Source: an archaeon
GTDB lineage: Archaea; Thermoplasmatota; Thermoplasmata; Methanomassiliicoccales; Methanomethylophilaceae
Direction: 5' to 3'
Assembly (NCBI GenBank): GCA_024399275.1
Contig: JAKSHS010000002.1
Span: 1-64,000 of the forward strand
Length of the DNA stretch: 64,000 nucleotides
Part shown: positions 17,817 through 35,241 of the stretch, one piece after another
Layout: every line of letters starts with the position of its first letter
How positions within the stretch are numbered: position 1 is the stretch's first letter
The notes under the pieces: generated by a model
Database searches by the model: none
Seen by the model: the letters and a program-made list of their open reading frames with translations, nothing else
What the model was told of the DNA's origin: nothing
Program-made: the position numbers and the translations under genes

Positions 17817-20800
17817 GAAAGAACTATGAGAAAATTATGATCATTGGTTCAGGGCCCATTGTTATCGGACAAGCAGCAGAATTTGATTTTTCGGGATCAC
17901 AGGCATGTAAGTCAATTAAGGAAGAAGGGTACAAAACAGTTCTTGTTAACTCTAATCCGGCCACTATTCAAACGGATGCAGATATGGCGGATTCAGTTTA
18001 CATAGAGCCATTGCAAACACGCGTGATAGAGAAGATTATTGAGAAAGAAAAGGTAGACGGAATTCTTGCTGGTATGGGGGGACAAACGGCACTTAATATT
18101 TGTTCGGAATTGGCAGATGCAGGTGTACTAAAAAAGTATGGAGTAACGCTTCTCGGAACAAACCCCGATGCAATTGCAATGTCAGAAGATCGCGAACTTT
18201 TTAAGGAAGCCATGCAAAGAATTGGAGAGCCAGTTCCACTGAGTGAAAGTGCAAATTCCATTGAAGACGCGCTTAAGGCAGTGAAGATCATTGGAAAGTA
18301 TCCTGTTCTTGTTCGTCCAGCTTATACTCTTGGAGGTACTGGGGGTGGTATTGCCCACAATGAGAGTGAACTTAGAAGTATATGCGGAAGAGGCCTTGCT
18401 TATTCTCGCATTCATCAGGTTCTTATTGAAGAGTCAGTACTTGGCTGGAAAGAGTACGAGTACGAAGTTATGAGAGATAGTAACGATAATTGTATAGTTG
18501 TCTGTAATATGGAAAACATTGATGCTATGGGCATCCACACGGGAGAGAGCATTGTTTGTGCCCCGTGTCTTACACTCTCCGCCGAAGATAGTCTTCGTCT
18601 CAAAAAGTCAGCTATAAAAGTTATACGAACTCTTGGGATTGAGGGGGGATGTAATGTTCAGTTTGCATTAAATCCTTCTAATGGTGATTACCGTCTTATT
18701 GAAGTTAATCCACGTGTGTCAAGATCGTCAGCACTAGCGTCTAAGGCTACTGGATTTCCAATAGCTCGTATATCAGCAAAGATTGCCCTTGGATATACTT
18801 TGGATGAGATTCTTAATAAGGTTACGGGGACCACATCTGCAGCATTTGAACCTTCGATAGACTATATCGTCACCAAAATACCTCGATGGCCTTTTGACAA
18901 GTTTCGTACAGTTGACAGACATCTTGGAACACAAATGAAATCTACCGGGGAGACAATGTCTATCGGGCGAACTTTTGAGGAATCTATTCTTAAAGGAATA
19001 AGATCGCTTGAGATAGGTAGCGTATATTTTGACGAACTTAACATATCTGATAATGAAATTAAAGACGAGCTAATACACGCAACTGATAAACGTATTTTTG
19101 TTGTGGCTGAAGCGTTGAGAAGGGGGATGTCTCCGGACGTAATAGCAAAACATGCGTGTTGGGATATCTTTTTTGTATACAAGATTAAGAACATTATTGA
19201 TATGGAAAATAGAATTAGAAAAGAAGAGTTGACACCTTGCCTTATTAAAGAAGCGAAGAAGATGGGATTTGCAGATGCGACAATTGCTTCGTTTATTGGA
19301 AAAGAAGAGAGATACGTTCGTGAAATTAGAAAACTACATGGGATTATTCCGACTTATAAGGCAGTTGATACATGTGCGGCTGAATTTAAGGCAAAGACAC
19401 CTTATTTCTACTCAACATATGAAGATACGTGTGAATTAGTCAGTAACAAGGAAAAAAAGTCAGTTGTTATTATAGGTGGAGGGCCTATTCGTATAGGCCA
19501 GGGCATAGAATTTGATTGCTGTTGTGTCCATAGTGTTATGGCGCTTCAGGCGGCCGACGTAGAAGCAATTGTTATCAATAATAATCCTGAGACAGTGTCT
19601 ACGGATTTTGATATTGCGAATAAATTATACTTTGAGCCTTTAACTTTTGAGGACGTTCTCAATGTCATTGAAAAAGAGAATGCTGATGGGGTGATTGTTC
19701 AATTTGGTGGACAAACAAGTGTGAATCTTGCTGTTGACTTGAAGATTGCATTGAGAGATACTAAGACGAAAATTCTTGGAACAGATCCGGATATGATAGA
19801 CATCGCAGAAGATAGAAGGAAGTTTTCTAAACTTATGAGTAATCTTAGTATCAGACAGCCAGAATCTGGGACTGGATACTCTCTTGAGGAGATTAGTAAA
19901 ATAATAGAGAGAATAGGTTATCCCGTTCTTGTACGACCCTCGTATGTTCTCGGTGGGCGCGGAATGGAGATTCTTTACTCTACTGAAGAACTTAGGTATT
20001 ATGTTGATACGGCAGTTAAGGTCTCAAGAAATCATCCGATTCTCATTGACAAATATCTTGCTAAGGCTGTTGAATTGGATGTAGATGTTATTGCTGATGG
20101 AAAAGACGTTTATGTGGGGGGGATAATGGAGCATGTAGAGTATGCGGGCGTCCATTCAGGTGATGCGACAATGGTCTTGCCGCCATTTACTCTAAGTAAA
20201 GAGACCCTTGAGGATGTTATTTCCATATCAAAAAAGACGGCGTTAGCGCTTAAGATTAAAGGGTTAATGAATCTTCAATTAGCTGTCGTTAATAAAAAAG
20301 ATGTTTATATGATAGAAGCTAACCCCAGAGCATCTCGTACAGTACCTTTTATATCTAAATCTACCGGGGTACCACTTGCTAAGATAGGTACGCAGATTAT
20401 GCTTGGAAAAACCTTTAGAGATTTAGGAATCGAGTGTATGTATCGCACAATTGATCATTATGCCATAAAGGTGCCAGTCTTTCCATTTTTGAAGCTCCCT
20501 GGAGTAGATTCAGTACTCACACCAGAGATGAAATCTACTGGTGAAGTTATGGGTATAGACAAAAATTTTGGTTTGGCATGTCATAAAGCATATGTTGCGG
20601 CGGGAAATAATCTTCCGGTGAAAGGGGGGGTGTATATTACCGTCAGTGATCAAGATAAGGAAAACGTAATTGCTTCAGCAAGAGAACTATATAGAATGGG
20701 TTTTGAAATTTATGCGACAAAGGGAACATCTACATTTCTTAGAAAGCATGGAGTTCCGGCGACTACAGTATTCAGGCTCAGTGAGAATATGATACCCAAT

Positions 20801-21034
20801 GCGGTAGGCCTTATGAGATCTGGAAAAATCAATATGGTTATCAATACGCCTTCATTTAAATCAGGTGCTGTAAGAGATGGATATCAATTGCGCCGTCTAG
20901 CGGTTGAGCTTGAAATACCGTTTTTAACTACCACGAATGGAGCTAATGCAACTGTGGCTGCGATTAAATCCGCAGTCGGCGAGGAGTTTAATGTTCTCCC
21001 GATGAAAGATTATCATACGCCTTGGAACTTATGA
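17813..21034 (+). CDS. carB: Carbamoyl-phosphate synthase large subunit
   Basis: A 1073-residue enzyme with two ATP-grasp halves. The first has 'GSGPIVIGQAAEFDFSGSQA' and 'ARPAYTLGGTGGG'-like 'VRPAYTLGGTGGGI'; the second has 'GGGPIRIGQGIEFDCCCVH' and 'VRPSYVLGGRGMEI'. The C-terminal MGS-like allosteric domain is present (from about residue 930, ending near 'TTNGANATVAAI'). It makes carbamoyl phosphate for pyrimidine and arginine synthesis. The start overlaps the carA stop by four bases. Length is standard. Because CarA lacks the glutaminase triad, ammonia must reach the first ATP-grasp site directly or through an unused tunnel. Confidence 0.97.
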   Translation: MRKNYEKIMIIGSGPIVIGQAAEFDFSGSQACKSIKEEGYKTVLVNSNPATIQTDADMADSVYIEPLQTRVIEKIIEKEKVDGILAGMGGQTALNICSELADAGVLKKYGVTLLGTNPDAIAMSEDRELFKEAMQRIGEPVPLSESANSIEDALKAVKIIGKYPVLVRPAYTLGGTGGGIAHNESELRSICGRGLAYSRIHQVLIEESVLGWKEYEYEVMRDSNDNCIVVCNMENIDAMGIHTGESIVCAPCLTLSAEDSLRLKKSAIKVIRTLGIEGGCNVQFALNPSNGDYRLIEVNPRVSRSSALASKATGFPIARISAKIALGYTLDEILNKVTGTTSAAFEPSIDYIVTKIPRWPFDKFRTVDRHLGTQMKSTGETMSIGRTFEESILKGIRSLEIGSVYFDELNISDNEIKDELIHATDKRIFVVAEALRRGMSPDVIAKHACWDIFFVYKIKNIIDMENRIRKEELTPCLIKEAKKMGFADATIASFIGKEERYVREIRKLHGIIPTYKAVDTCAAEFKAKTPYFYSTYEDTCELVSNKEKKSVVIIGGGPIRIGQGIEFDCCCVHSVMALQAADVEAIVINNNPETVSTDFDIANKLYFEPLTFEDVLNVIEKENADGVIVQFGGQTSVNLAVDLKIALRDTKTKILGTDPDMIDIAEDRRKFSKLMSNLSIRQPESGTGYSLEEISKIIERIGYPVLVRPSYVLGGRGMEILYSTEELRYYVDTAVKVSRNHPILIDKYLAKAVELDVDVIADGKDVYVGGIMEHVEYAGVHSGDATMVLPPFTLSKETLEDVISISKKTALALKIKGLMNLQLAVVNKKDVYMIEANPRASRTVPFISKSTGVPLAKIGTQIMLGKTFRDLGIECMYRTIDHYAIKVPVFPFLKLPGVDSVLTPEMKSTGEVMGIDKNFGLACHKAYVAAGNNLPVKGGVYITVSDQDKENVIASARELYRMGFEIYATKGTSTFLRKHGVPATTVFRLSENMIPNAVGLMRSGKINMVINTPSFKSGAVRDGYQLRRLAVELEIPFLTTTNGANATVAAIKSAVGEEFNVLPMKDYHTPWNL

Positions 21035-22261
21035 GTGGGCCTATGGTTTATACAAAATTTCCTTTTACTGTAACTGTGGACATTTTATGACGTAAGTCAG
21101 CAAGATGATTATGGTGAAATATATCCACATATGAGCATTGGTAGTAGAGATTGCCCTTCCAATTCTGAGACATTAATTGTGAACTGCTTGATGATGTGGC
21201 TCCTTCTCTTTTGTAGCCTTTGTTGTAAATGATACATTGTAATCTCTTTCGGGAAGTGGGTTTTGCTCTCTAGCACGCGTGCTTTCATAGATGATTTCTT
21301 AAAAACTTTCTACTCGTAGTTGAGTTTAGGATGTTGCACGACATGAGTTTGAGAGTAACGAACGAGTTATTTGTATTCAAAGAAAAGTTCTGGTATTTCT
21401 AGTTCCTAATTGACCATAATTATTGAAACTTATTTCGTCACTGGATGTTGTTGTAACACTTACACTATGACCGAAAGATGACAAAATTATTGTAAAGGCG
21501 ACGGCTAGTGTAAGAATTTTAATCTTCATCTTCGACGTGCCTCTAGTGTATAACCAGGATGTGAAGCACATTTATTCGAGTCATGATCAAATGTCTGAAT
21601 TATATCGTGATCTATAGGAGGAAGATGAAGATATTCATAATACAACAATTGGAATTGGTAGTGCGTTTATAGTAGAGAAAAGATCGTGGATTTTGCAGGG
21701 TTATTGTTCGTTATTTTGTTGATTATAGTTGCAATCACATTGAAAAAGAGTCGATATTTTAGAATTGAGGCCGCTATGGATTTTTCAATTGGATAAAATA
21801 TTTCCAGTATAGGCTTCGCAGGGTATATTATGAGATGAGAAATTAAACATTTGTATGAAGTCAAACTCGCGTTATGTGATTATGTGTAGCTGAGTAAAGT
21901 TTGCATGACTCTAATTTTGTAATTAATATGATGTCAGAGCTCTACGATGGTGGCTACAAGTGGCGCTATGCTTATTGTATTTGCTAGAAACCAGTGTTTC
22001 AAGATATTCTATATTAGGGCGCAGATTGTTGGTTAGTTTGAACTTATGGACATTGCAGATTTCTTTGTTATTAAATTTGTTGTAACGGCCCCGCTGATTC
22101 TTCTAAAATTATTTTGAATTTGCCTTTCGCATGAGCTATTTTCATTTATGATTTAAATTTTATTTATGAAGATGCTAAGCAGGCAGGGTCTTCTTTTTGT
22201 TCATCTGATTTGTCTTGTTTCTTGTTAATGTTCTAACAGTGGAAATTGATATTCCTAAGTT
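21035..22261. other. Gene-poor 1.2-kb region
   Basis: Both strands are rich in stops. Apart from one weak small exported-peptide candidate at 21377-21529, no coherent coding frame, tRNA or strong hairpin was seen. It could hold decayed genes or unrecognised RNAs. Confidence 0.5.
21377..21529 (-). CDS. Possible small secreted peptide or remnant of a surface protein
   Basis: A 50-codon frame from an ATG at 21529. It begins with a plausible signal peptide (MKIKILTLAVAFTIILSS, then 'FGHSVSV') followed by a short Ser/Thr/Asn-rich stretch and a stop. The ribosome site is weak (AGAGG about a dozen bases upstream). No homologous continuation was found after the stop. It may be a truncated cell-surface protein gene. 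Confidence 0.25.
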   Translation of the reverse strand: MKIKILTLAVAFTIILSSFGHSVSVTTTSSDEISFNNYGQLGTRNTRTFL

Positions 22262-24979
22262 TCAGCAAGCAAAATAACCAAATGTTCGGAGCATATGTTT
22301 TTTAATCAAATGGGAGCAAGAGAGAAACACACATGCGATAAATGGCATCCAGACGAGTGACCATAAGGGTATTTTTAATCCTTCGATTCCTGCGATGCTT
22401 GTCCATATGGGTTCGATGAATGGAAGTGTTGTTCCAATTATTAATGCAATGATTGTAGCGATAATCAAAATCTTCGACGGCTGACTCTGGGAGAATGGTC
22501 TTTTGTTGGTACGTACGATATGAATAACCCATACTTGTATCCAGTATTGCTCGATACACCAGAAAGATTGAAACATTGTCTCGAATGGAGTGTTTCTTAT
22601 ATTTACATTGTCGAAAATCATTGCGACACCGCTAATAGCCTCATTAGTTTGGATAGAGGTTGCTGTAAATAATATGAAAATTATGAACATCCATGTCATA
22701 ATGTCTGTTAATAAGTATAGCGGCCCGTAGTGAAAAATAATATTTTTAATGTTAACAATATCCCACTTGCATGGTTTTCTGACAAATTCGTCTTCAACAT
22801 TGTCCCATGGTATAGCAATACATGCAAGATCATTTATTAAATTGAAGACAAGAATCATCATTGCACCCATTGGACTGAAATCGAATATGAGAGTTGCAAA
22901 AATTAGAGAAAGCATATAACCAAAGTTGGTGGATCCAATCATTTTTATATATTTGATTGTGTTTGCGTGCACCTTTCTCCCTTCTATGGCTCCATCCTTA
23001 AGGATATTGAGGTCTTTCTCTAGAAGGATCATTTGAGCCGTATCTCTTGCAATGTCCGTGCCTGTGTCAACGGAAATGCTAATATCAGAATTTTTCATGG
23101 CCACTACATCGTTGATTCCGTCACCCATAAGCCCTACTGTGTGTCCATTTGCACGAAGGGCCTGTACGATACGGGATTTGTTATTAGGCGTGAGTCTAAC
23201 AAAAATATCGAATTTTTCTACGGTATCGCTTAGCTCTTCATCAGACATTCTGTCAATACTTGGGCCTAAAATAACATCGCTAGCTGATATGCCTATCTCA
23301 TTCGTAACATAACGGGCAACGTATTCATTGTCTCCAGTAAGAACTTTAGTAGTGATACCATATTTTTTCATGTCTGCAATGGCATTTTTGGCCGTATTTT
23401 TTATAGGATCAGAAAATACGACAAAACCAGCATAGATAAGCTCTGACTCGTCGTCTTTTGTGAATTCCTTTTTTGTACCTGGAAAGTATCTGTAACCGAC
23501 ACCGAGAACACGCATTCCTTTCTCACTATACCACTCAACAAGCCCCATGATACCATTACGTGTTTTATCGTCGAGGACTTTGATTTCTCTATTCTCATCT
23601 AAATAACCCGTTGAAATTGAAAGCATTTCAGGTGGTGCTCCCTTAGTGATCATTATATTGACTCTGTCATCTTGTTTGACAATAACAGTTGCCCTCCTTC
23701 TAAAGAAATCAAACGGAATGTCCGCAACATATGGATACATTTCTAACTCATTTGTGAGCGCGCGTTCTTCGGCATAGTCGTTGATTGCCCAATCAATTTG
23801 GTTAGTTGAAGACGTGAGATTTTTGCTGTTTAGACAAATAAAAAGACCTGCCATGTGACTATTGTTTCCGTGTATATCATTGCAGCTCATAACTGAGATT
23901 CTATTCTGAGTGAGTGTGCCAGTTTTATCAGAGCAAAGGATGTCCATAGCACCTAAATTTTGAATAGACGTCATATCTTTGATAATGACTTTTTTCTTTG
24001 ACATATCTATGGCGCCCTTTGCGAGATTGGTAGACACTATGGTTGCAAGCATTTCAGGCATGAGGCCTATAGCCAGAGTTACAGAAAAAATGAGTGCGCT
24101 TTGTATATTTTGATATGTAAAACAACTTTCGTCGACATATCCTTTAATCAACATTATTATCGTTATTATTGGAATCGTGTACGTCATTAATTTAGTAAGA
24201 ACTTTGACAATAGCTTTGTTTCCCTTATCATACGGTGTTAGGCTTTTACTTTTTGTTAATTTCTCTGTTATTAAACCGAAAACAGTATCATCACCAACGG
24301 TAACAACGATAGCTTCGGCTGAACCGCTAACGACATTAGATCCCATGAACGCCATGTTGCTGCATTCTAAAATGTATTTCTCATTGTCTACCGCCGTGTC
24401 AGTCTTTGTAACTTCACTAGATTCTCCTGTAAGAACAGATTGATCTACCTTCAAGTGATTTGACTTGATAATTCGAACGTCGGCGGGGACTGTATCTCCT
24501 GCATCGAGAATGATGATGTCTCCAACAACTAAATCAGCAGAGTCTACTTCGATTTCAACATTTTCGCGCCGGAGTGTAATAATTGTCGTAACCATATTGA
24601 TAAGTTTTGTAGCGGCATTCTCACTTCTGGTCTCTTGTATGAACACCATTGAGCCATTAATAATTATGAGTGTTACCAAAGCGTAAATATATGCCCAATT
24701 AACTTTTTCACCTTGCAAGATTGAGCATATTAACCAAAGAACACCTATAACGACTAAAGAAACAATAAAAACGTTGACGAATGCACGACGAATCCTTTTT
24801 AGGACTATATACTTGCTACGGCTAGTGATTGTATTATCACCAAACTTAATACGAGACGTTGTGACTTCTTCATTATAATGTCCTTCTGGCCTGCTATCAA
24901 GTTTGTTCATCAAAATTGTGGCGTTTGACACTGCAGCGAATTTTATTCTTTTTTCTGGATCTGACAGATCACTAGTCAC
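22262..24979 (-). CDS. mgtA: P3B-type magnesium-importing P-type ATPase
   Basis: A 905-residue pump of the MgtA/MgtB class. It shows the actuator 'VLTGESSEV', the phosphorylation loop 'CSDKTGTLTQN', nucleotide-domain 'TKGAPPEML', hinge 'LTGDNEYVARYV' and 'GLMGDGINDVVAMKNSDI'. Membrane segment 4 contains 'IGLMPEMLATIVS', as in MgtA, and the C-terminal part has six further helices. It drives Mg2+ into the cell. It is a single gene. No Mg2+-sensing riboswitch was recognised upstream. Confidence 0.93.
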   Translation of the reverse strand: MTSDLSDPEKRIKFAAVSNATILMNKLDSRPEGHYNEEVTTSRIKFGDNTITSRSKYIVLKRIRRAFVNVFIVSLVVIGVLWLICSILQGEKVNWAYIYALVTLIIINGSMVFIQETRSENAATKLINMVTTIITLRRENVEIEVDSADLVVGDIIILDAGDTVPADVRIIKSNHLKVDQSVLTGESSEVTKTDTAVDNEKYILECSNMAFMGSNVVSGSAEAIVVTVGDDTVFGLITEKLTKSKSLTPYDKGNKAIVKVLTKLMTYTIPIITIIMLIKGYVDESCFTYQNIQSALIFSVTLAIGLMPEMLATIVSTNLAKGAIDMSKKKVIIKDMTSIQNLGAMDILCSDKTGTLTQNRISVMSCNDIHGNNSHMAGLFICLNSKNLTSSTNQIDWAINDYAEERALTNELEMYPYVADIPFDFFRRRATVIVKQDDRVNIMITKGAPPEMLSISTGYLDENREIKVLDDKTRNGIMGLVEWYSEKGMRVLGVGYRYFPGTKKEFTKDDESELIYAGFVVFSDPIKNTAKNAIADMKKYGITTKVLTGDNEYVARYVTNEIGISASDVILGPSIDRMSDEELSDTVEKFDIFVRLTPNNKSRIVQALRANGHTVGLMGDGINDVVAMKNSDISISVDTGTDIARDTAQMILLEKDLNILKDGAIEGRKVHANTIKYIKMIGSTNFGYMLSLIFATLIFDFSPMGAMMILVFNLINDLACIAIPWDNVEDEFVRKPCKWDIVNIKNIIFHYGPLYLLTDIMTWMFIIFILFTATSIQTNEAISGVAMIFDNVNIRNTPFETMFQSFWCIEQYWIQVWVIHIVRTNKRPFSQSQPSKILIIATIIALIIGTTLPFIEPIWTSIAGIEGLKIPLWSLVWMPFIACVFLSCSHLIKKHMLRTFGYFAC

Positions 24980-25281
24980 TATATGGGGGACAATTCCCTT
25001 TATATTTCAAATTGGCCCGCTACACCTCTTATAAAAAACGGTTTTTTGGTTTTTGGTATTGAGGCTAGTCATTATTTCTATGTATCACGGTAAAATGTGG
25101 ATGATGTGGACAGTTATCTGCTGGGATTGTTGATGTGAAGTGGAGTTTTTAGTTGACGAGTATGGTTTGAACGCTGACGTGGATTTCTGTATGATTGCTT
25201 AATGAAGAGCTTTGGTAGTATTTGGAACTCATTTTAAGTGGCGAATTGTATTTTGGAAGACGAAAATGATGTAATTAACCA
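24980..25281. other. Intergenic region between mgtA and the DUF5685 gene
   Basis: About 300 bases. It includes 'ctttatatttc' just upstream of mgtA, but no gene, repeat or recognised RNA motif. Confidence 0.4.
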
Positions 25282-26205
25282 TTATGGGTTAGATTGTACA
25301 GTTGCTGAGAAAGCCTCGTTAATTCTTTGTTTTAGACTTAAATTCGGTGATGCGTCTCCGCAGATAATTTTATGAGACGAGAACGGTACCCCTCGGAATA
25401 TTATGTTGTCTAGTATTTCAGTGTTAGATTTTAGGTTTGAACGAAGACTGAGGTATGATTTCTGAATAGCGTTGGTAACATCACCGACTAACTCCCCGAT
25501 GGTGAAGGCATTATCGCTAATAAATTGCCTCTTGCTCTGGAAGTTAGTATTGTTTATAAGGAAGGGGTTGTACGTGTCTCTGGAAGCGTCTTCGTCAAGG
25601 TCTTCTATGGCGTCCATAATGTAAATCCAGATGCCAAGATTTTTAAATAGTTTGTAGAGCCTGTTGCTGAATTTGGCACCTAGCATAAGTGAAAAGACAT
25701 CCAGCATAGACTGCGTTGAATATGTTCCCATTATCAATGGGTCAGATTCTTTCGCAGACTCTGCTTCTATTAATTTTTTGTATCCGTCGAGAATTAGTAT
25801 GTCGTATTCTGGAAATTCAGTTTTGGCTTTGACTATAGCACGATTTAGACATAACAAAGCAAGTTTTGCTTTTAAGAGATGAGTGTTGTCTTCCTTATCG
25901 TCAATTAAGCTATTATTTATTGCCAATACAGTGTAGGCTGCTAATTCATGCATCAATTTTTCATCACAAATGCTGTGTCCAAATATGCAAAATCTAGTTT
26001 TTTTTTGTTTATGGAATAATTCGTTATTGTGAAAAATTGAGTCAAAGAAAAGAGTTGCGAAGGTCATCTCGTAATTGACTGTGAGAGTTGACATGTAACC
26101 ATATTTTTCTTTCAGATGATGACAGGTTTCACAGTAGTAATTTCTGTAAGTCACCTTTTGACTGGGTGAAAGTTCACTTTCGATTGGAATGATATATCCA
26201 AACAT
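25282..26205 (-). CDS. DUF5685 family protein with Cys and Asp-rich motifs
   Basis: A 307-residue, probably all-helical protein. The start 'MFGYIIPIESEL' and 'YYCETCHHLKEKYG' (Cys25, Cys28, His29) match the DUF5685 family, which has no known function. Further cysteines at 73 and 80 could complete a metal site. Two acidic motifs, DDKED (102-106) and 'DAIEDLDED' (198-206), sit at spacing reminiscent of isoprenoid-synthase folds; that resemblance is only suggestive. It is divergent from the cysteine-rich peptide gene and shares an 88-base promoter region with it. The TATA-like element is about 26 bases from its ATG, so the mRNA may be leaderless. Confidence 0.7.
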   Translation of the reverse strand: MFGYIIPIESELSPSQKVTYRNYYCETCHHLKEKYGYMSTLTVNYEMTFATLFFDSIFHNNELFHKQKKTRFCIFGHSICDEKLMHELAAYTVLAINNSLIDDKEDNTHLLKAKLALLCLNRAIVKAKTEFPEYDILILDGYKKLIEAESAKESDPLIMGTYSTQSMLDVFSLMLGAKFSNRLYKLFKNLGIWIYIMDAIEDLDEDASRDTYNPFLINNTNFQSKRQFISDNAFTIGELVGDVTNAIQKSYLSLRSNLKSNTEILDNIIFRGVPFSSHKIICGDASPNLSLKQRINEAFSATVQSNP

Positions 26206-26226
26206 AGATTTGCTGCCTTATGGGAA

Positions 26227-26240
26227 TATTTAATATATGG
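26227..26240. promoter_or_regulatory. Shared divergent promoter of the peptide cassette
   Basis: TATTTAATATATGG is near-symmetric and lies about 28 bases from the DUF5685 start on one side and 60 bases from the peptide start on the other. It could place transcripts in both directions: leaderless for DUF5685 and with a leader of about 34 bases for the peptide gene. Confidence 0.45.
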
Positions 26241-26293
26241 TTTTAACATGTGTGTTCGCTGTTTAGGCCTGTGCGGGCATTGGTGAGAAGCTG

Positions 26294-26554
26294 ATGGGAA
26301 AACCGAAATCCAACAAAGACCTCGCGCTGATTTATGAGGGTCAGTCGAATTCGTTTGCGAGGGTGAATTACAGGGCGCCTACTGGTCGGGAAGACTCGTG
26401 GGAGGCGAAGGCGCACACCGGTGATCCGTCTTGTTACGGGTGTTGTGGGACTAAGTGTTGCATGTCGCTCGTGGCTGTGACTGCCATTGCGGCTGTTTGC
26501 TGCTCGTATACGATGAGCCCGGATGGGTGCGCTGGGTCTTATTGGCCATTTTGA
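26294..26554 (+). CDS. Cysteine-rich 86-residue peptide, candidate RiPP precursor
   Basis: The ATG is preceded by GGTGAG with six-base spacing. Residues 1-45 are hydrophilic and leader-like. Residues 46-86 form a distinct core with eight cysteines (47, 50, 51, 55, 56, 69, 70, 79) in the pattern C-x2-CC-x3-CC-x12-CC-x8-C, a hydrophobic stretch 'MSLVAVTAIAAV' and the end 'GSYWPF'. A radical SAM/SPASM gene starts 31 bases downstream. G+C is about 55% by hand count (149 of 270 bases around the gene), far above its neighbours. The hydrophobic stretch could also be a membrane helix, so a small membrane metal-binding protein is an alternative. I do not recognise a named family; the precursor role is inferred from context. 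Confidence 0.6.
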   Translation: MGKPKSNKDLALIYEGQSNSFARVNYRAPTGREDSWEAKAHTGDPSCYGCCGTKCCMSLVAVTAIAAVCCSYTMSPDGCAGSYWPF

Positions 26555-26585
26555 TTGGCCGTGTGTTTTCTGACTGGGTGCGGAG

Positions 26586-27740
26586 TTGGGGTCTTTCATT
26601 GCAGTTGTGGTTAAGCCTACGCTTAGCTGCAATCTTCGGTGTAAGCATTGCTATCATAGTGGGGAGTCTGTCAATGGGGCAATGGATATAGGGTTGTACG
26701 AGAAGGCTGCAAGTTTGATTTCAGAGTCATATGACTCAGTGGCATTCATATGGCATGGAGGGGAGCCACTCATGATGCAGACGACTTTCTTCAAAAAGGC
26801 TATCGATGTTCAGAGGAGATATTTCGAAGGGCGGACATGCGACAATGTTATCAGGACTAATGGAACTCTTTTGGACTCTCGTTTTATTAGGTTCTGTAAA
26901 AGTAATAGAGTGAGTATTGGTGTCTCTTATGAGGCAGGTTTTGAAAGAGGTTTGCGTCCAAATTTGGATGTAAAGTTTGTCGATTCTATGCTGAATCATG
27001 TGTCTAAGGAAGGTTGTTCGTCTTTTGTAAGTGCTACAATACATAGAGGCAACTTAAATGACATGAAGGAAATATACCAGAGAGTTAGGGCGATGAGGCT
27101 GCCGCTCTCGTTTAATCCTGTTATTAATCTAGGTGGCGCCCTCAACTACCCTGAATTGAGATTAGATGCGGATGAGTATGCTCAGAAGTTAATTGAAATC
27201 TATGATGTTTGGCTCCATGACAGCTCAACGTACACACCTATTGTTCCTTTTATGCATTGTATAAGTGCAATAATGAATAGATCTCAGAGTGTTTTTGATT
27301 GCCCACATGCGTCGTGTCTGATGAAGTGGATTTCCATCTATCCTAACGGAGATGTGTATCCATGTGGAAAAGCGTGTCCAAAAACTTTCTGTATGGGCAA
27401 TATTTCGAGGACTGAAAAGATTGCTGATCTTTTTGAGTCTGATGGATTCAGAAGAATACTCATCGGCTCTATTGAAAGACGTAAGAAATGTCAAAATTGT
27501 GAGGTCTACAAATACTGCAATGGGGAATGTAGCATTGATATTATGGCGGATGGCAATATTGAAGATAATGATGGTTTCCCTTGCAAAGTATATAAGAAAA
27601 CTTTTAAACATATCAAAAAGACGTTAGATGATATTATGGAGACAAAGCCGAGCTTGACTAATTATAACAGGTTTGTAAGGGATTCTGTTGTCGGTAGGCT
27701 TGTTGATCCTCGGGCGAGTGACATAATCTGTTCTAAGTGA
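26586..27740 (+). CDS. Radical SAM enzyme with SPASM domain
   Basis: A 384-residue protein. The SAM-binding cluster motif 'CNLRCKHC' (Cys15, 19, 22) lies close to the N-terminus, followed by 'IWHGGEPLM', the glycine-rich SAM site. The C-terminal SPASM region holds the auxiliary-cluster cysteines: 'CLMKW', 'YPNGDVYPCGKAC', 'CMGNIS', 'CQNCEVYKYCNGEC' and a last Cys in 'FPCKVYKK'. This layout is that of anSMEs and peptide-modifying enzymes that form thioether or C-C crosslinks. The TTG start follows GGGTG; a GTG at 26604 is an alternative. It lies directly behind the cysteine-rich peptide gene, so that peptide is the obvious candidate substrate. No RRE domain is evident at the N-terminus. Confidence 0.88.
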   Translation: MGSFIAVVVKPTLSCNLRCKHCYHSGESVNGAMDIGLYEKAASLISESYDSVAFIWHGGEPLMMQTTFFKKAIDVQRRYFEGRTCDNVIRTNGTLLDSRFIRFCKSNRVSIGVSYEAGFERGLRPNLDVKFVDSMLNHVSKEGCSSFVSATIHRGNLNDMKEIYQRVRAMRLPLSFNPVINLGGALNYPELRLDADEYAQKLIEIYDVWLHDSSTYTPIVPFMHCISAIMNRSQSVFDCPHASCLMKWISIYPNGDVYPCGKACPKTFCMGNISRTEKIADLFESDGFRRILIGSIERRKKCQNCEVYKYCNGECSIDIMADGNIEDNDGFPCKVYKKTFKHIKKTLDDIMETKPSLTNYNRFVRDSVVGRLVDPRASDIICSK

Positions 27741-27991
27741 TTTATGTTTTAACGTATTTACAAGTTGTATTGTGCTGGTATGGCAGACGACTTTGGTGTT
27801 TGTTTGAAGATAGATGAGGCGAATTACGTGCGTGTGTATTGGATTGCAATAGATGCGTTTGTAGAAAGTAGAGGCTGAATTTCGTTAGATTTGATGTAAT
27901 TGAGGAGTGTTGTATTATATTATAGTGGTCATTGTGCTAATGTTCGAGATGCATTACTCACGAGGGCAGCGGGATATGGAGTTGGCATGCA

Positions 27992-28591
27992 ATGTCATTT
28001 GAGAGGAGGAACCTTGTATTAGATGCTGTAAAAAAGGTCCATTTAGAGTCGTGGTATATGAATTTGGAAGACCGCGATAAAATAAGACTTGAAAGATATG
28101 TTTCTAGTTCTAACACTGTATCTACGTATGAATTTCTAATGAGTATTATTCATGAATCACTGAAGGACAAAAATCACGAATTTACTGCGTTTCTGTGTCA
28201 GAATATTGGTAAATTGACTGAGATGAGTGATTACCAGAGGTTTGAGGTCAATGAGATATTTATCGATTCTTGTGCAGAGATAGGAAGGTACGATGATCTT
28301 AAGGCTGCTTGTGAGATGAATTTTAATTTGTTCGAGAAGGTTAAGACAAAAATACTAGAAGACAACAATGGTACGTACCCGTTGAAGCTCAATTTTAGGA
28401 ACAAGTATATTGATGTGATTGTTGGAGTCGACTCTAATTATGATTTGGGGTTTGAGATGCTAAGAAAATATAAAGAAATGGGCCTACTCGACGCAGAGGA
28501 GTTTAGATTTCGCTGTAAAAGCTTAAATGTTCATCGTCTGCAGAGGGTTTTTGACGGTGTGTATACGTATAGGCCAGTTGGTGGCCCTTAG
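27992..28591 (+). CDS. Orphan 199-residue helical protein
   Basis: Not recognised. It appears to be wholly alpha-helical, with helix pairs that could be degenerate TPR-like repeats ('LKAACEMNFNLFEKV', 'GFEMLRKYKEMGLL'). It has no signal peptide, no membrane segment and few cysteines. It follows the radical SAM gene after 251 bases on the same strand, so it may belong to the peptide cassette or be unrelated. Its end overlaps the convergent Nif3-like gene by four bases. Confidence 0.55.
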   Translation: MSFERRNLVLDAVKKVHLESWYMNLEDRDKIRLERYVSSSNTVSTYEFLMSIIHESLKDKNHEFTAFLCQNIGKLTEMSDYQRFEVNEIFIDSCAEIGRYDDLKAACEMNFNLFEKVKTKILEDNNGTYPLKLNFRNKYIDVIVGVDSNYDLGFEMLRKYKEMGLLDAEEFRFRCKSLNVHRLQRVFDGVYTYRPVGGP

Positions 28592-28920
28592 ATTAGAGAT
28601 TTCCAGTCTATGCACGCTATGACGTCAATTGCTGGTTCCTCATAAGGATGCACTTCTGAGATTTTTCGGAGTACTGCTTTTATGTCTTCATCTTTTACGA
28701 CGAATTCAACTTTTTTCTCTTTTGAGTATTCCTTTTCTCCTATTGCTCCAACATATGGAGAAGAACCTTTTTGAGGGATCCATGTTCCGGTGCAGTCTGT
28801 AATATAAAAACATCTCCGGTAATTGTTATGAGATGACTTCAAAATGAGGTCGATTTCGTCCATTAGTTTCTCAACATATTTTTCTGGTATTGAAACAGTT
28901 ACTTTGTATATTTCAGACAT
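28588..28920 (-). CDS. Nif3/YqfO insertion-domain-like small protein
   Basis: A 110-residue protein with 'YKVTVSIPEKYVEKLMDEI' and the signature 'HPYEEPAIDV', typical of the CutA/PII-like domain inserted into bacterial Nif3/YqfO proteins. It stands alone here without the dinuclear-metal Nif3 domain. Homologous stand-alone domains are annotated without function. It may form trimers and bind metal or a nucleotide. Confidence 0.75.
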   Translation of the reverse strand: MSEIYKVTVSIPEKYVEKLMDEIDLILKSSHNNYRRCFYITDCTGTWIPQKGSSPYVGAIGEKEYSKEKKVEFVVKDEDIKAVLRKISEVHPYEEPAIDVIACIDWKSLI

Positions 28921-29254
28921 TGGCTGTTCTAATGTGTGCTAAGATTAGTAACAGATTTATAGCTTTACTTTAGGTCATTCATTCATGAAATGGACACAAT
29001 TAGAACGCGTGTCGTTAATTGAGAGCAGAAAAGATAGAGGAAGATGCGGATGAAACTGGCGAACTAATATTTTGTGTGTGTAAACTGCCAATAATGTGTT
29101 TCCAAAGTGCTACTTTTAGAGCAAAATCTGGGAGGACATCATGACAGTGGCATATTTTGTTTGGATAGTATATGGCAATTCCGATTTGATTATTAGTGGC
29201 TGTATCTCTAAATAGAAAATGTAGGTGGGAGAACCCATACTTTAAATGTTTAAT
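28921..29254. other. Intergenic region, no gene seen
   Basis: About 330 bases between two minus-strand genes. It probably holds the promoter of the Nif3-like gene and the terminator of ABCE1. No specific element stands out. Confidence 0.4.
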
Positions 29255-31030
29255 TTATACAGCTGAGTCTGTGTAATAGTATTCCCCCATTAACTTTTGT
29301 TCTCTATCGAGCCTTGAGTCAGGTTTGTTTATTCTCGGCCTGTTGGATTCTGCATCTCTTCTGAATGTTATGTTGACTGCGCCAAGGAATTTATTCATTC
29401 CTTCCCTCATATTATAAGGGCCACTACCTGTACCATTATGTCCTGGAATCCCTCCAAATACCATCATTGAATCTGATACCATGTCTAGAAAGTACATATC
29501 GTGGTCAATAATCATTCCACTTTTCCCAGACTTTTCTATCATTCTTCTAATGACTTTAGCAGCATTCATTCTTTGATTAGAATCAAGATATGCTGAAGGC
29601 TCGTCGATGAGATAGATATCCGCTTTTTTCGAGAGACAGATAGCAATAGCAACACGTTGAAGCTCTCCTCCAGAAAGATTTTGAACGTTTTTTTCGTAGA
29701 GACTCTTTATATTAAGTGGCCTAGCCACTTCTGTCTGAAAGAACGTTGTTTCAATAACGTCAGAAGCTTTCATGTAAAAAAGATCACTGACTGTACCTTC
29801 AAAATCAATGGTAATGTATTGTGGTTTGTATGATATGCTTAGGTTTGAATTAATTTCACCGGTATCTGTTTTAATTTCTCCAGCAATAATTTTAACAAAG
29901 GTTGTCTTTCCTGTACCATTAGGCCCAACGATACCAACTGATTCCCCAATCTTAATTATTCCAGGATTGACCTTAAGTTTAAATGACCCTAGGTTTTTTC
30001 CGATATCACTGAACTCTATTAAGTTAGCAGTATTCCAGTTTCTTTGTGGCGATGTTGTGAAAAACTCGACTGGTTTGTCTCTGAATTTAATGTTTTCTTC
30101 GGGAAGATAACCGTCTAGATAGACATTAATTGCTGTTCTAGCTTGACGAGCTTGTGTGAAGACTCCGTAAGCTCCTTCTGTTCCATAGACTATATTGATG
30201 TTGTCTGCGAGAAAATCTAGAATAGCTAGATCATGCTCAATTACGACAACTTGTTTTGTTACACTGAGCTTTTTAATTTTCTTTGCTATGCTTACTCTTT
30301 GATAAATATCAAGATATGAGGATGGTTCATCAAAAAAATAAACGTCGACGTCTTTCATCATTGTTGCTGCTATTGCAAGACGTTGAAGTTCCCCTCCAGA
30401 GAGTTTTGTTAATTCTCTGTCGAGGACTCCTTTCAATTCAAACTCTTTTGCCGCCTCATCTACTGTCATTCTTTCTTGCATTTTTGATAGCAAATCTTTA
30501 ACAACGCCTTTGACCTGCGTGGGAATCTTGTCAACATATTGAGGTTTGATTGCTGTTTTAATTTTTCCGCCGTATAGAGCTTGAAAATAATCATGCATTT
30601 CTGTACCTGCATAATACTGGAGGACTCTTTCTTTTGTGGCAGAATTATACTCTCCGAGATTAGGAATTTCTAATCCAGAGAGTATATTAATTGCTGTGGA
30701 TTTGCCGATTCCATTAGGCCCAAGAATACCTGTAACGATGCCTTTTTTCGGAAATGGTAGTCTGTATAGTCTAAATGCGTTTTCGCCGTATTGGTGGATT
30801 ATTTCGGTTTTGAGTTCATCGCTTAGTCCAATAATTCTGATTGCATCGAATTGACATTTATTGACACATATGCCGCATCCTACACAGAGTGTCTCAGAAA
30901 TGACTGGCTTGCCCTTACCTCCATCAGTAATGCATTCTATTCCAGTTCTTACTAAAGGACAAAATTTAAAGCATTCCCTGTTGCATTTTTTGTTTTGACA
31001 CTTGTCACGTATAACGGCAGCAATTCGCAT
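29255..31030 (-). CDS. ABCE1, ribosome recycling ATPase (Rli1)
   Basis: A 591-residue protein with an N-terminal iron-sulfur domain of eight cysteines ('DKCQNKKCNRECFKFCP', 'CVGCGICVNKCQFDAI') and twin ABC domains. Walker A motifs are 'GPNGIGKST' and 'GPNGTGKTT'; the signature motifs are both 'LSGGELQR'; Walker B regions are 'VYFFDEPSSYLD' and 'YLIDEPSAYLD', each followed by a hinge segment. It splits ribosomes after termination or Pelota-mediated rescue; Pelota is encoded at 15.5 kb. It is full length. Confidence 0.97.
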   Translation of the reverse strand: MRIAAVIRDKCQNKKCNRECFKFCPLVRTGIECITDGGKGKPVISETLCVGCGICVNKCQFDAIRIIGLSDELKTEIIHQYGENAFRLYRLPFPKKGIVTGILGPNGIGKSTAINILSGLEIPNLGEYNSATKERVLQYYAGTEMHDYFQALYGGKIKTAIKPQYVDKIPTQVKGVVKDLLSKMQERMTVDEAAKEFELKGVLDRELTKLSGGELQRLAIAATMMKDVDVYFFDEPSSYLDIYQRVSIAKKIKKLSVTKQVVVIEHDLAILDFLADNINIVYGTEGAYGVFTQARQARTAINVYLDGYLPEENIKFRDKPVEFFTTSPQRNWNTANLIEFSDIGKNLGSFKLKVNPGIIKIGESVGIVGPNGTGKTTFVKIIAGEIKTDTGEINSNLSISYKPQYITIDFEGTVSDLFYMKASDVIETTFFQTEVARPLNIKSLYEKNVQNLSGGELQRVAIAICLSKKADIYLIDEPSAYLDSNQRMNAAKVIRRMIEKSGKSGMIIDHDMYFLDMVSDSMMVFGGIPGHNGTGSGPYNMREGMNKFLGAVNITFRRDAESNRPRINKPDSRLDREQKLMGEYYYTDSAV

Positions 31031-31161
31031 GTTTATGGGATTTCTCTCCTTGTTAAAAATGTATGTCGGTGGTTCATAGAATAATCATCTGTTTGTATTA
31101 GAATAAAACTTGATATTTCTGAGCATTAAGTATTATAGACAAGGAGAAATAGCGTTTTGCG

Positions 31162-33426
31162 ATGAGGAAGCTCGTAATTACCGAGAAGGCAAGTGTAGCT
31201 AGAAGGATTTCTGCTATTTTGTCTAATAAAGAATCACAAAAAAAAGTAGTTAATAAAGTATCTGTTATATCTTTTTCAAGCAACGGTGATGATTATGACG
31301 TTGTAAGTCTTAGAGGACACATTATAGAACTAGATTACTCGCCAGAGTTTAGTGATTGGACTAAAATTTCTCTGACTGATCTTGTGTATGCTCCACAAGT
31401 GAAAATAATTAGATCGAAAAATATACTGGATACTATTGTAGTTCTGTTGCAGGATGCGGATGAAATCATTATTGCAACTGATTTTGATAGAGAAGGAGAG
31501 CTTATTGGTTTAGAAACTGTTATTGCTGCTAATGCCGATATGAGTATAGTTAAAAGGGCTAGATTTAGTGCTTTAATTAAAAGAGATGTAGAGAATGCTT
31601 TTAAAAATCTCTCGTCTCCTGATCAGAGATTGGCGGATGCGGCTGAAGCAAGACAAATTATTGATCTTTCTTGGGGAGCAGTTCTTACAAGATCGATATC
31701 AGTTTCATCTGGACAAATAGGAAAAAATTTTTTGTCTGTGGGTAGAGTTCAGAGTCCCACGTTGAAGCTTCTTGTCGACCGACATGAAGAAATCGTCAAT
31801 TTTACACCAGTACCATATTGGAGAATCGTTGGTAAGTTTGGAGATACGTCGTTTAAGGGGGAACATGAAAATAATCAGTTTTGGGAGGAGGAAGAAGCTC
31901 ATGCCATTTTAGAAAAATGTTTATTGTGTAAGGATGGAAGGGTTGAACTATATGAGTGCTTGGTGAAGGAGGAGCCTAGGCCTATTCCCTTCGACACTAC
32001 AAGAATGCAGGTAGAGGCAAATAAGATTGGCATTTCACCTGTTACGGCCATGAAGTTGGCAGAGGAATTGTACATAGGAGGTTACATATCTTATCCCCGT
32101 ACAGAGAATACAGAATATCCGAAAAATTTGAATTTACGGAATATTCTTGAAAAGCTTAAAGAGTCAGATTTCAGAGCAGAGGTTACGGAAATTCTCAAGC
32201 AAGATAGCATTTGTCCTTCCCGGGGGAAAAAGAGGACGACAGATCATCCTCCAATTTATCCAACAAATGGTGCGTCATCGAGTAGGATGAAGGGCGATAA
32301 GTGGAAGTTGTATGAACTTATTGTGAGGAGATTTCTTGCAACAGTTGGAGGTAATGCCGAAGCTGAAATAACAAAGTGCGTTGTCAATGTTGCAAATGAA
32401 AAATTCAATGCTGAAGGTTATGTTTTAAAGAAGAAAGGTTGGAAGAAATATTATAAAAAATATATTACGACCACAAATATCCGCATTCCTAAGCTAGAGA
32501 TTGGGTCATCCGTAGAAATCAAATCAGTGTCAGTAATGGAGGAGGAGACGAAGCCTCCACGCAGATATAATCAAGGATCTCTTATTCAAGAAATGGACAG
32601 GTTGGATCTTGGAACAAAGAGTACAAGGCACGAAATTATTGGAAAGTTGTACTCGAGGAGCTATGTTCAAGGAAATAATATGGTTCCGACGGCTTCTGGA
32701 ATAGCTCTCGTTAGATCGCTCACAAAGCATGGAGGAGGGATTGCGGAGCCAGGAATGACGGCAAAACTCGAAAGTGATATGCTTGAAATTATGAGGGGGG
32801 AAAAGACATTGGATTTTGTTGTTAAAGAATCCCAAGATTTACTGTATAGATCGGTGGTAACAATGGAGTCCGAGATGGAAGCGATTGGTAATGAAATCAG
32901 AGAAGCCCTCAAGGTTCAGCAATTTTTGGGTAAATGTCCAGATTGTGGGGGCAATATGATTATTAAAAGGTCAACAAATGGTAAATTTATTGGTTGTGAT
33001 GGTTTTCCCAACTGTAAACAAACATACCCTTTTCCGAATGGAGCGATGGTACAGACGGTGGAGACTGTATGTAAAGTATGTAAACTTCCTCAATTAAAAG
33101 TTATAAGGTCTGGTATGCCTCCACAGGTGGTGTGTATCAATCCAAAGTGTCAAAGCAATGTAGAAGCGAATACTTTGGGAACTTGTCCCACCTGTAAAGT
33201 TGGAGTTATTAGGATAGTCTATTCAAAGAGAGGAAAACGTTTTGCGGGATGTTCTAGGTGGCCAGATTGTAGTCAATCGTACTTTTTACGGAGGGGAGGG
33301 ATAATTCCCACGAATAAAGCTTGTGGGGTGTGTGGGGCGCCTATTATAATATTGGGAGATCACGAAGAATGTATTAATAGCACGTGTTCCAAGAAAACTA
33401 GTAAGTCGGTCAATAATTTGAAATAG
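31162..33426 (+). CDS. topA: DNA topoisomerase I (type IA)
   Basis: A 754-residue enzyme. The Toprim domain has 'LVITEKASVARRIS' and 'IIIATDFDREGELIG'; the catalytic Tyr lies in 'GGYISYPRTENTEYP'. After about residue 590 there are four zinc-ribbon units with CxxC pairs ('CPDCGG', 'CKVCKL', 'CPTCKV', 'CGVCGA'), two of them of the 'RFAGCSRWPDC' type. It relaxes negative supercoils, and the length is typical for archaeal enzymes. There is no helicase fusion, so it is not reverse gyrase, which fits a mesophile. Confidence 0.95.
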   Translation: MRKLVITEKASVARRISAILSNKESQKKVVNKVSVISFSSNGDDYDVVSLRGHIIELDYSPEFSDWTKISLTDLVYAPQVKIIRSKNILDTIVVLLQDADEIIIATDFDREGELIGLETVIAANADMSIVKRARFSALIKRDVENAFKNLSSPDQRLADAAEARQIIDLSWGAVLTRSISVSSGQIGKNFLSVGRVQSPTLKLLVDRHEEIVNFTPVPYWRIVGKFGDTSFKGEHENNQFWEEEEAHAILEKCLLCKDGRVELYECLVKEEPRPIPFDTTRMQVEANKIGISPVTAMKLAEELYIGGYISYPRTENTEYPKNLNLRNILEKLKESDFRAEVTEILKQDSICPSRGKKRTTDHPPIYPTNGASSSRMKGDKWKLYELIVRRFLATVGGNAEAEITKCVVNVANEKFNAEGYVLKKKGWKKYYKKYITTTNIRIPKLEIGSSVEIKSVSVMEEETKPPRRYNQGSLIQEMDRLDLGTKSTRHEIIGKLYSRSYVQGNNMVPTASGIALVRSLTKHGGGIAEPGMTAKLESDMLEIMRGEKTLDFVVKESQDLLYRSVVTMESEMEAIGNEIREALKVQQFLGKCPDCGGNMIIKRSTNGKFIGCDGFPNCKQTYPFPNGAMVQTVETVCKVCKLPQLKVIRSGMPPQVVCINPKCQSNVEANTLGTCPTCKVGVIRIVYSKRGKRFAGCSRWPDCSQSYFLRRGGIIPTNKACGVCGAPIIILGDHEECINSTCSKKTSKSVNNLK

Positions 33427-33478
33427 GTGTGAAAAGTGTGAGTGTAGTAAGCTTGTATGAAATGGTCTGTAAGTCAGA

Positions 33479-33778
33479 TTAGCATAGCTTTTCGATGCCT
33501 GCGTTTTTGTAGTAGGTGTTTATTTCGTCAATGTATTTTGATACACGGGCATTACGGCAAGAAGGACATTCCAGTTCCTTGCCTAAGTATAACTTTATTA
33601 ACATCTGTGAAGAATCGAAATCGATGATCTCTCCGCATTTGCAAAATACTTTCTTCATTTTACTTAGACCTACGCTATTGAATACCGAGTTTCCGCTACT
33701 TGATATTCGGCGTTCGGAGTAATTTTCGTTCATATATTTTGCACACCAGCTGCAGAGAAACTGTTGATACCCTATCAA
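33479..33778 (-). CDS. Small zinc-ribbon-like protein
   Basis: A 99-residue protein with three cysteine pairs, 'CSWC', 'CKCG' and 'CPSC', the last two framing a likely zinc ribbon. It is not otherwise recognised. The start is uncertain: TTG at 33778 includes the first CxxC, whereas an internal ATG at 33736 would drop it. It lies convergent to topA, 52 bases away. Confidence 0.5.
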   Translation of the reverse strand: MIGYQQFLCSWCAKYMNENYSERRISSSGNSVFNSVGLSKMKKVFCKCGEIIDFDSSQMLIKLYLGKELECPSCRNARVSKYIDEINTYYKNAGIEKLC

Positions 33779-33975
33779 TATTTTCCCGTGTATGAAGTTG
33801 CGAGATATAGCTGGTATAAAATTGTTTGTGAATAAATCAATTTTATTGGCTTTAGTAATTATTAATAATGAGAAAGCCTCGCTTTCATAGTCTGCTTTAT
33901 TCTGGAAACTTAAAGGGGGTATTCCCGAGCTATATCCGATATTTAGAGGGTTCTAAAAGTGGAGGACGTGGAAGT

Positions 33976-35241
33976 TCATAATGTAAATGCTTTTTTGCCG
34001 AGAAAAACTGCTTTAGATCCAAGTTCTTCCTCAATTCTTAAAAGGCGATTGTATTTTGCTGTACGCTCGCCGCGCGCTGGTGCTCCAGTTTTAATTTGAC
34101 CTGTTCCCCAGCCTACGGAAAGATCTGCAATACTAACGTCCTCAGATTCTCCAGAGCGATGTGATACAATAACTGAGTATCCATTTTTGAAACATGTATA
34201 TGCTGTATCTTCAGCTTCTGTGATGGTACCAATTTGATTTACTTTTAAAAGGAGTGCGTTGGCAGCTAGTTTTTCAACTCCGTTTAAAAAACGTTTTGTG
34301 TTGGTGACGAAGAGATCGTCGCCAACAACCTGAATTCGGGATCCGATTCTTTTTGTGAGTGTGGCTGTAGTTTCAAAATCATCTTCAAAAAAAGGGTCCT
34401 CTATACTCACAATCGGGTACGTCTTTACAAGTGTTTCATAGTAGTCAGCAAGTTCTAATGATGATAATTTTTTGTTATCAATGTCGTAGATGCCTTCATC
34501 ATAAAATTCGGATGATGCCGCATCTAGAGCAAGTGAGATGTCTTTTCCAGGTATATACCCTGCGTTTGATATGGCGTCTATTATTATTTCTATTGCCTCT
34601 GATGAGGTTTTAAGTGGTGGTGTAAAGCCTCCTTCATCACCAAGATTAATTGCCCTTATGCCGCATTTGTTCATTAATATAGATTTTAGAGACATGTAAA
34701 CTTCTGTTGACATTCTAAGGCATTCAGAAAATGATTTAGCACCTGTTGGAACAATCATAAATTCTTGAATTTGGAGGTTTCCGCCTGCGTGTTTTCCACC
34801 GTTGATAATGTTTAGCAGTGGCACCGGAAGAGTAACACCATTATCTCCAATATATTCGTACAACGGAAGGCCTTCGGCGAAGGCGCCTGCTTTTGCGACT
34901 GCGAGAGAAGTTGCTGTAGTTGCATTTGCTCCAAGTCTTTGTTTGTTTTCTGTACCATCGATTTGAATCATTGCCTCATCTATTGCTTTTTGATCCGTTG
35001 GATTCATATTCACAATAGCTTTCGCAATTTCTGTCCGAATATTATTTACTGCAGTCTGTACACCTTTTCCATTGAATCGATTGTTCTGATCGCGAAGTTC
35101 GTAAGCTTCCCATAAGCCAGTAGATGCTCCGGAGGGAGCTATAGCGCGAAGTCGATGCCCGGATACTGTAATTTCAGCCTCCACAGTTGGATTTCCTCTA
35201 GAATCTAAAACTTCCCTTGCCCATACTTTTTCAATTTTCAT
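33976..35241 (-). CDS. eno: Enolase
   Basis: A 421-residue phosphopyruvate hydratase. Signatures are 'REVLDSRGNPTVEAE', 'GASTG', 'NGGKHAGGNLQIQEFMIVP', 'GDEGGFTPPL', metal ligands in 'LALDAASSEF', 'SIEDPFFEDD' and 'VVGDDLFVTN', and the catalytic Lys region 'LLKVNQIGTITEA' and 'VSHRSGESED'. Its start overlaps the end of the upstream pseudo-receiver gene by 11 bases, so the two are cotranscribed. Confidence 0.97.
   Translation of the reverse strand: MKIEKVWAREVLDSRGNPTVEAEITVSGHRLRAIAPSGASTGLWEAYELRDQNNRFNGKGVQTAVNNIRTEIAKAIVNMNPTDQKAIDEAMIQIDGTENKQRLGANATTATSLAVAKAGAFAEGLPLYEYIGDNGVTLPVPLLNIINGGKHAGGNLQIQEFMIVPTGAKSFSECLRMSTEVYMSLKSILMNKCGIRAINLGDEGGFTPPLKTSSEAIEIIIDAISNAGYIPGKDISLALDAASSEFYDEGIYDIDNKKLSSLELADYYETLVKTYPIVSIEDPFFEDDFETTATLTKRIGSRIQVVGDDLFVTNTKRFLNGVEKLAANALLLKVNQIGTITEAEDTAYTCFKNGYSVIVSHRSGESEDVSIADLSVGWGTGQIKTGAPARGERTAKYNRLLRIEEELGSKAVFLGKKAFTL

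Follow-up and report, generated by a model that had tools for sequence, protein, structure and literature searches.

A conserved DUF5685, cysteine-rich peptide and radical SAM/SPASM gene cassette in gut methanogens, with a candidate role in peptide maturation

Gene organization and conservation of the cassette

The window, by which we mean the whole analysed stretch of 64,000 nucleotides from contig JAKSHS010000002.1, belongs to an archaeal genome bin of 750 kb (G000). It carries a DUF5685 gene, divergent from it across a shared intergenic region a gene for a small cysteine-rich peptide, and downstream of the latter a gene for a radical S-adenosylmethionine (SAM) enzyme with a SPASM domain (Table 1). 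An initial annotation had proposed that these genes, together with a gene for a helical orphan protein, make up an undescribed cassette for a ribosomally synthesised and post-translationally modified peptide (RiPP), with the peptide as the substrate of the radical SAM enzyme. Its description of the three genes is confirmed, including the ribosome site, eight-cysteine pattern and SYWPF end of the peptide, the identity and divergent position of DUF5685, and the completeness of the enzyme gene, which starts 31 bases 3' of the peptide stop and whose product exceeds the Pfam cut-offs for both domains (Radical_SAM, 1.3e-9; SPASM, 8.3e-9). The start codon of this gene, TTG in the window, is mainly ATG or GTG in relatives, and GGTGA sites precede the peptide ATG in relatives as well. 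The data come mostly from metagenome assemblies, and the cassette is known here from sequence alone.

Table 1. Positions of the cassette genes and adjoining features in the window
Feature	Position	Strand	Description
DUF5685 gene	25282-26205	minus	307 amino acids; PF18937, E=4.6e-47, 161 bits (gathering cut-off 26.7)
Divergent intergenic region	26206-26293	no strand	88 bp; A+T-rich TATA-like stretch and the GGTGA ribosome site of the peptide gene
Putative TATA-like stretch	~26229-26238		TTTAATATAT; read from sequence
Candidate precursor peptide gene	26294-26554	plus	86 amino acids; ATG with GGTGA upstream
Peptide regions (residues)			leader-like half (Y14, Q17 invariant); core C47, C50/C51, hydrophobic helix ~53-73, C70-x-Y72, W84-P85-F86
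Radical SAM/SPASM gene	26586-27740	plus	384 amino acids; CNLRCKHC cluster motif and C-terminal SPASM cysteines
Helical open reading frame (ORF)	27992-28591		begins ~250 bp past the radical SAM stop

Sixty-one related genomes were profiled, including 24 sampled from other families of the same order. Close relatives of the radical SAM enzyme are encoded in 25 of the 61, all within the family of the window and with orthologues occurring one per genome, and they are absent from the 24 sampled genomes of the other families. The peptide gene was detected by a profile search in 26 of the 61 genomes and DUF5685 in 28, almost always at the same position. Presence and absence of the three genes covary across this set, the lower-scoring radical SAM gene of G004 being recovered by a locus scan. 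A cysteine-rich peptide ending in W-P-x is encoded directly upstream of the radical SAM gene in all loci that were fetched (26/26). The peptide homologues sought on the suggestion of the initial annotation are always found beside the enzyme, and none was seen without it except at contig ends, so that neither of the refuting conditions set by that annotation arose.

Scanning named genomes with the DUF5685 alignment disclosed 66 loci, 64 archaeal and two from Clostridia. The archaeal loci are labelled Methanomassiliicoccales, Methanomethylophilaceae, Methanoplasma or related names, and many of them come from guts; their DUF5685 proteins fall together in a single group of the tree (support 100/100). 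Six of the 64 are cut by contig ends, and the same divergent order of DUF5685, peptide and radical SAM genes is present in 57 of the 58 with enough flank, which supports the proposed RiPP-type cassette with the peptide as the likely substrate. In G006, the DUF5685 gene sits about 3.6 kb further off. This recurrence is much more than chance. Comparison of the window with its sister sequence gives ratios of non-synonymous to synonymous substitution rates (dN/dS) of 0.07 (peptide), 0.08 (DUF5685) and 0.11 (radical SAM enzyme), so the peptide is under purifying selection. The three genes are thus a conserved cassette of gut methanogens that was previously undescribed. An open-access literature search returned no report joining Methanomassiliicoccales, RiPPs and radical SAM enzymes, and found DUF5685 named in what is, by its title, a survey of uncharacterised C. 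difficile proteins.

The cysteine-rich peptide and the DUF5685 family

The eight cysteines of the window peptide are arranged as C47-x2-C50C51-x3-C55C56-x12-C69C70-x8-C79. Residues Y14, Q17, C47, C50, C51, C70, Y72, W84 and P85 (window numbering) are invariant in 66 of 66 distinct peptides, all of which end in W-P-[F/N/Y/L] with Trp third from the end. Most carry W-T-Y-W-P-F, and variants richer in Cys/Ser occur in the window's own group. The variable core expected by the initial annotation was not found; the aligned Cys/aromatic core is conserved instead, so the peptide is probably unlike a diversifying bacteriocin, a candidate that we do not favour. Between the Cys clusters lies a hydrophobic stretch, with mean hydropathy of about 1.7-2.6 over 19 residues. 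The AlphaFold2 model of the peptide, used solely for this hydrophobic helix, has low confidence (predicted local distance difference test, pLDDT, 63) and contains one helix at residues 53-73. The window peptide has no Pfam or NCBIfam match, none of the matches among 21 members is convincing, and phage relatives were not found. In L112 (6328-6975), the peptide frame passes the usual stop after WPF, possibly through a sequencing error or as a real C-terminal extension. A Lys/Ala/Glu-rich N-terminal extension of about 100 residues precedes the usual leader in three loci of genus g6 (L003, L004, and L026).

For DUF5685, AlphaFold2 on 52 aligned sequences gave a confident all-helical model (pLDDT 88; predicted template-modelling score, pTM, 0.86). 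In a Foldseek search against PDB, about 46 of the best 50 matches were isoprenoid synthases or prenyltransferases, including fusicoccadiene synthase, MoeN5, octaprenyl diphosphate synthase, and squalene synthase. The sequence carries the motifs DDxxD (D102, D103, D106), DxxxDxxxD (D198, D202, D206), and CxxC (C25, C28). An alignment of 82 sequences from archaea and Clostridia shows no variation at D102, D198, D202, D206, E149, N213, N267, C25, and C28, and almost none at D106; in 78 of the 82 sequences the second Asp motif is preceded as Y195-x-x-D198, with Tyr at the position where Trp prenyltransferases have Gln. In profile comparison, this second motif registers with that of squalene/phytoene synthases, and the bacterial DUF5685 set scored 30.0, next to 29.9 between two known related families and about 15 for reversed controls. 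PF18937 is the sole convincing match in 21 members, no convincing Pfam match to PF00494 (squalene/phytoene synthase) or PF00348 (polyprenyl synthase) was obtained, and nothing significant emerged when the DUF5685 sequence was compared with solved structures. Model and motifs make membership of DUF5685 in the class-I isoprenoid synthase superfamily likely, though not proven, in agreement with the initial annotation, which saw in it a possible lipid-related partner. Polyprenyl synthase genes of their own, as a possible donor source, are present in all 25 related genomes searched.

DUF5685 is also found in 84 of 148 sampled genomes of one clostridial class. Of 33 loci inspected (32 clostridial and one copy in G058), 27 encode a J-domain protein next to DUF5685. 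The cysteines of these J proteins are concentrated at the C-terminal end, on average 8 in the final 35 residues against 0.19 in the remainder; 17 of the 27 terminate in -CC. Of the 148 genomes, 54 encode the tail motif CxxCxxLWCADxCCECMGGDLIxCC, and DUF5685 is also present in 52 of these. In G099, G073, and G208, the tail-motif gene and DUF5685 lie far apart or on separate contigs, yet both are present. Neither the archaeal-type radical SAM enzyme nor the peptide is found in the inspected bacterial DUF5685 loci, and none of their J tails ends in W-P-x or has a conserved C-terminal Trp. For the Cys-tail J-domain proteins encoded next to DUF5685 in the clostridial loci L121-L152, which often have this tail motif, no description was found in the literature searched.

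The copy in G058, a genome from another family of the same order as the window, is of bacterial type and nested among Clostridia in the tree, and was apparently acquired from them separately. It stands in a run (L052 7663-11599) of a regulator-like gene, DUF5685, a Cys-tail J protein, and an Hsp70-like gene, as read from sequence.

Candidate substrate and possible chemistry

Since the archaeal peptide and the clostridial J tails are both rich in Cys, a Cys-rich C-terminal tail appears to be the common partner of DUF5685 in the two domains of life. Because Clostridia combine DUF5685 and Cys tails without the radical SAM enzyme or a W-P end, we propose that DUF5685 acts on the Cys segment and the radical SAM enzyme on the aromatic end. 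The reading we prefer, tentatively, is of a RiPP-type cassette in which both enzymes share the peptide as substrate. The N-terminal half of the peptide would serve as a recognition leader, in which invariant Y14 and Q17 may be a recognition motif; the radical SAM/SPASM enzyme would act at the aromatic C-terminus (W/Y-x-Y-W-P-F in most members), most likely by forming an oxidative crosslink; and DUF5685 would modify the segment rich in Cys, where the likeliest reaction is transfer of an isoprenoid to at least one Cys. It is fairly likely that the peptide is the substrate of the enzymes, and plausible that it is prenylated; the sites assigned to the two enzymes are tentative. The product would probably be a peptide that associates with the membrane and serves a housekeeping function, and not a secreted bacteriocin, because no exporter or protease of the cassette is evident among the conserved neighbours (named by reading their sequences), conservation of the core is high, and the Cys clusters are separated by a hydrophobic helix.

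A wider proposal, possible but doubtful, is that DUF5685 represents a new prokaryotic family of peptide/protein prenyltransferases which would lipidate Cys-rich C-terminal tails, those of clostridial J proteins ending in -CC as well as that of the gut-methanogen peptide; the latter, being modified also by the radical SAM enzyme, would be a lipidated and crosslinked archaeal RiPP. A precedent exists in ComQ and PalQ, enzymes of isoprenoid-synthase fold which prenylate RiPP precursors (PMC10853753, PMC5331326, PMC13290415). The clostridial pairing resembles the archaeal one in that a DUF5685 homologue is encoded beside a protein with a Cys-rich C-terminal end, and differs in that a J-domain protein carries the tail as part of its own chain, no such radical SAM gene is near, and the function is undescribed in the literature searched. 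Eukaryotic Rab proteins, with the prenylation motifs -CC and -CXC (PMC10853753), and the prenylated Hsp40 Ydj1, with CaaX (PMC5014548), provide an analogy to the clostridial partners in their C-terminal Cys and the Hsp40 partner. The eukaryotic Cys prenyltransferases are, however, unrelated alpha/beta heterodimers, and prenylation of the clostridial partners is a prediction.

Several observations weigh against the reading we prefer. The Foldseek matches have E-values of only 0.12 or worse and TM-scores of about 0.3-0.5, and hhalign gave DUF5685 a probability of about 10% or less. DUF5685 might produce a small isoprenoid, or it might bind a prenyl lipid and not transfer it. Pfam and NCBIfam scans revealed no RiPP recognition element. 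The sole archaeal exception to the gene order, L120, has DUF5685 without the peptide and the radical SAM enzyme. Six of the 32 sampled clostridial loci have no adjacent J protein, and the Fisher test for co-occurrence of the tail motif and DUF5685 (p = 5e-15) is uncorrected for shared ancestry. No enzyme of the isoprenoid-synthase fold has a known activity on Cys. All characterised peptide prenyltransferases resembling trans-isoprenyl diphosphate synthases target Trp, according to a review (PMC13290415). At L120 (6905-8854), the DUF5685 reading frame is also extended to 649 amino acids, and the state of this locus could reflect gene loss or misassembly.

As to the radical SAM enzyme, its best NCBIfam score is with DynA (NF041298; 180 bits, cut-off 450), and lower scores were obtained with the anaerobic sulfatase maturase (TIGR03942; 158 bits, cut-off 349), a methanogen peptide-modifying radical SAM model (TIGR04083; 114 bits, cut-off 300), and DarW and DarE (100 and 89 bits). 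No NCBIfam equivalog cut-off is reached, and membership in a known radical SAM RiPP family was rejected. The nearest solved structures by sequence are those of the anaerobic sulfatase-maturating enzyme anSME (4k36 and 4k37; E ~1e-43), yet the maturase score stays under the family cut-off and the fixed neighbour here is a Cys-rich peptide.

SPASM enzymes encoded beside Cys-rich peptides often form thioethers, and the peptide has many conserved Cys. The radical SAM enzyme could accordingly be of the ranthipeptide or sactipeptide type, linking Cys to backbone or side-chain carbons with DUF5685 as an accessory, but we consider this unlikely. The matches to the thioether enzymes PapB (67 bits) and SCIFF maturase (49 bits) are weak, far under their cut-offs of 340 and 425 and also under the scores of DynA and the sulfatase maturase. 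Moreover, the most constrained terminal residues of the peptide are aromatic, the invariant terminal feature being W-P and not Cys, and Cys-rich tails accompany DUF5685 in Clostridia without such a radical SAM enzyme nearby. The thioether links put forward by the initial annotation are thus possible without being specifically supported. Together with the nearest structures, the scores lean slightly towards side-chain oxidation or aromatic crosslinking and against thioether formation, although values below cut-offs cannot fix the chemistry.

A quite unlikely arrangement is the reverse division of labour, in which DUF5685, in the manner of ComQ and PalQ, would prenylate the invariant Trp, the third residue from the C-terminal end, leaving the Cys-rich part to the radical SAM enzyme. 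This position, common to all 66 peptides, resembles that in ComX, whose Trp at the third or fourth place from the end is the target of ComQ (PMC5331326), and DUF5685 is of similar fold class with the first Asp motif intact. The ComQ-ComX and PalQ-PalX systems likewise link a small precursor, with Trp near its C-terminus, to an isoprenoid-synthase-fold enzyme with DDxxD. However, ComQ, PalQ, and ChrPC, all of which act on Trp, share a Gln ahead of the second Asp motif (PMC10853753, PMC5331326, PMC13290415), and this mark of known Trp prenyltransferases (PMC13290415) is missing from DUF5685, which has a full second Asp motif like squalene/phytoene synthases. Because the nearly invariant Tyr195 replaces the Gln, we did not file DUF5685 with these enzymes. 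Its clostridial partners, too, lack a conserved C-terminal Trp but have Cys. The cassette further differs from the ComQ and PalQ systems in being archaeal, in adding a radical SAM/SPASM enzyme, in its Cys-rich precursor with a conserved core, and in having no sensor kinase.

An improbable explanation takes the peptide as a small membrane protein binding metal through its Cys, DUF5685 as a metal-site or assembly factor with its CxxC, and the radical SAM enzyme as acting on another substrate. The invariant CxxC of DUF5685 and the Cys clusters in the peptide and J-protein tails would suit a metal or iron-sulphur role, which leaves unexplained the two Asp motifs and isoprenoid-synthase resemblance of DUF5685, as well as the invariant terminal W-P of every peptide adjacent to a radical SAM gene. 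That the product is a secreted antimicrobial of darobactin/dynobactin type, crosslinked at an aromatic C-terminus ending in Phe, is barely credible: the DynA, DarE, and DarW systems also pair a radical SAM/SPASM enzyme with a precursor having an aromatic C-terminal core, here W-T-Y-W-P-F with Phe usually last, and the dynobactin maturase DynA is the best-scoring model, but that score is far under the family cut-off, no exporter or protease belongs to the cassette, dozens of host-associated species share the conserved core, the aromatic end follows a Cys-rich hydrophobic helix, and the DUF5685 partner is always there.

The cassette gives a first functional context to DUF5685, a family without an assigned role that over half the genomes sampled from one clostridial class encode, and ties it to Cys-rich C-terminal tails across two domains of life. 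Together, the cassette and the bacterial pairing suggest a new peptide or protein modification, perhaps lipid attachment. If prenyl transfer takes place, this would be prokaryotic Cys prenylation by an isoprenoid-synthase-fold enzyme, for which the literature searched offers no precedent, and a combination of radical SAM and prenyl chemistry would join the RiPP repertoire, in methanogens of livestock and termite guts. Lipidation of clostridial J proteins, if true, would parallel the prenylation of eukaryotic Rab and Ydj1 with an unrelated enzyme. Even without prenylation, a new conserved peptide-maturation cassette is defined.

Neighbouring genes and a collinear sister contig

The helical orphan protein named in the initial annotation is indeed encoded by an ORF, but it does not belong to the cassette. 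It pairs with a CutA-like ORF, and the two make up a separate conserved pair located about 3-7 kb away in other genera; the four-gene unit was thus rejected, and the order conserved across archaeal genomes has three genes. In the sister contig, this pair is inverted relative to the cassette (window 27978-28970 versus L054 9005-9997), in a local inversion just 3' of the radical SAM gene.

This sister contig, C14 of G000, is collinear with window positions 19167-37958 (L054 1-19000) over about 19 kb, with 82-87% DNA identity save for the inverted pair. The collinearity indicates a sister organism binned together with the source of the window and not a gene duplication, and a second paralogous cassette in the same genome was rejected. 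The reported contamination of the bin is 5.1%. Conserved convergent neighbours of the cassette in other genera resemble RidA, MetA, and CysK, as named by reading their sequences. Beyond DUF5685, and outside the cassette, the window carries a gene for a Mg2+-type P-type ATPase on the minus strand (22262-24979; TIGR01524, 725 bits), which is adjacent in the sister contig as well.

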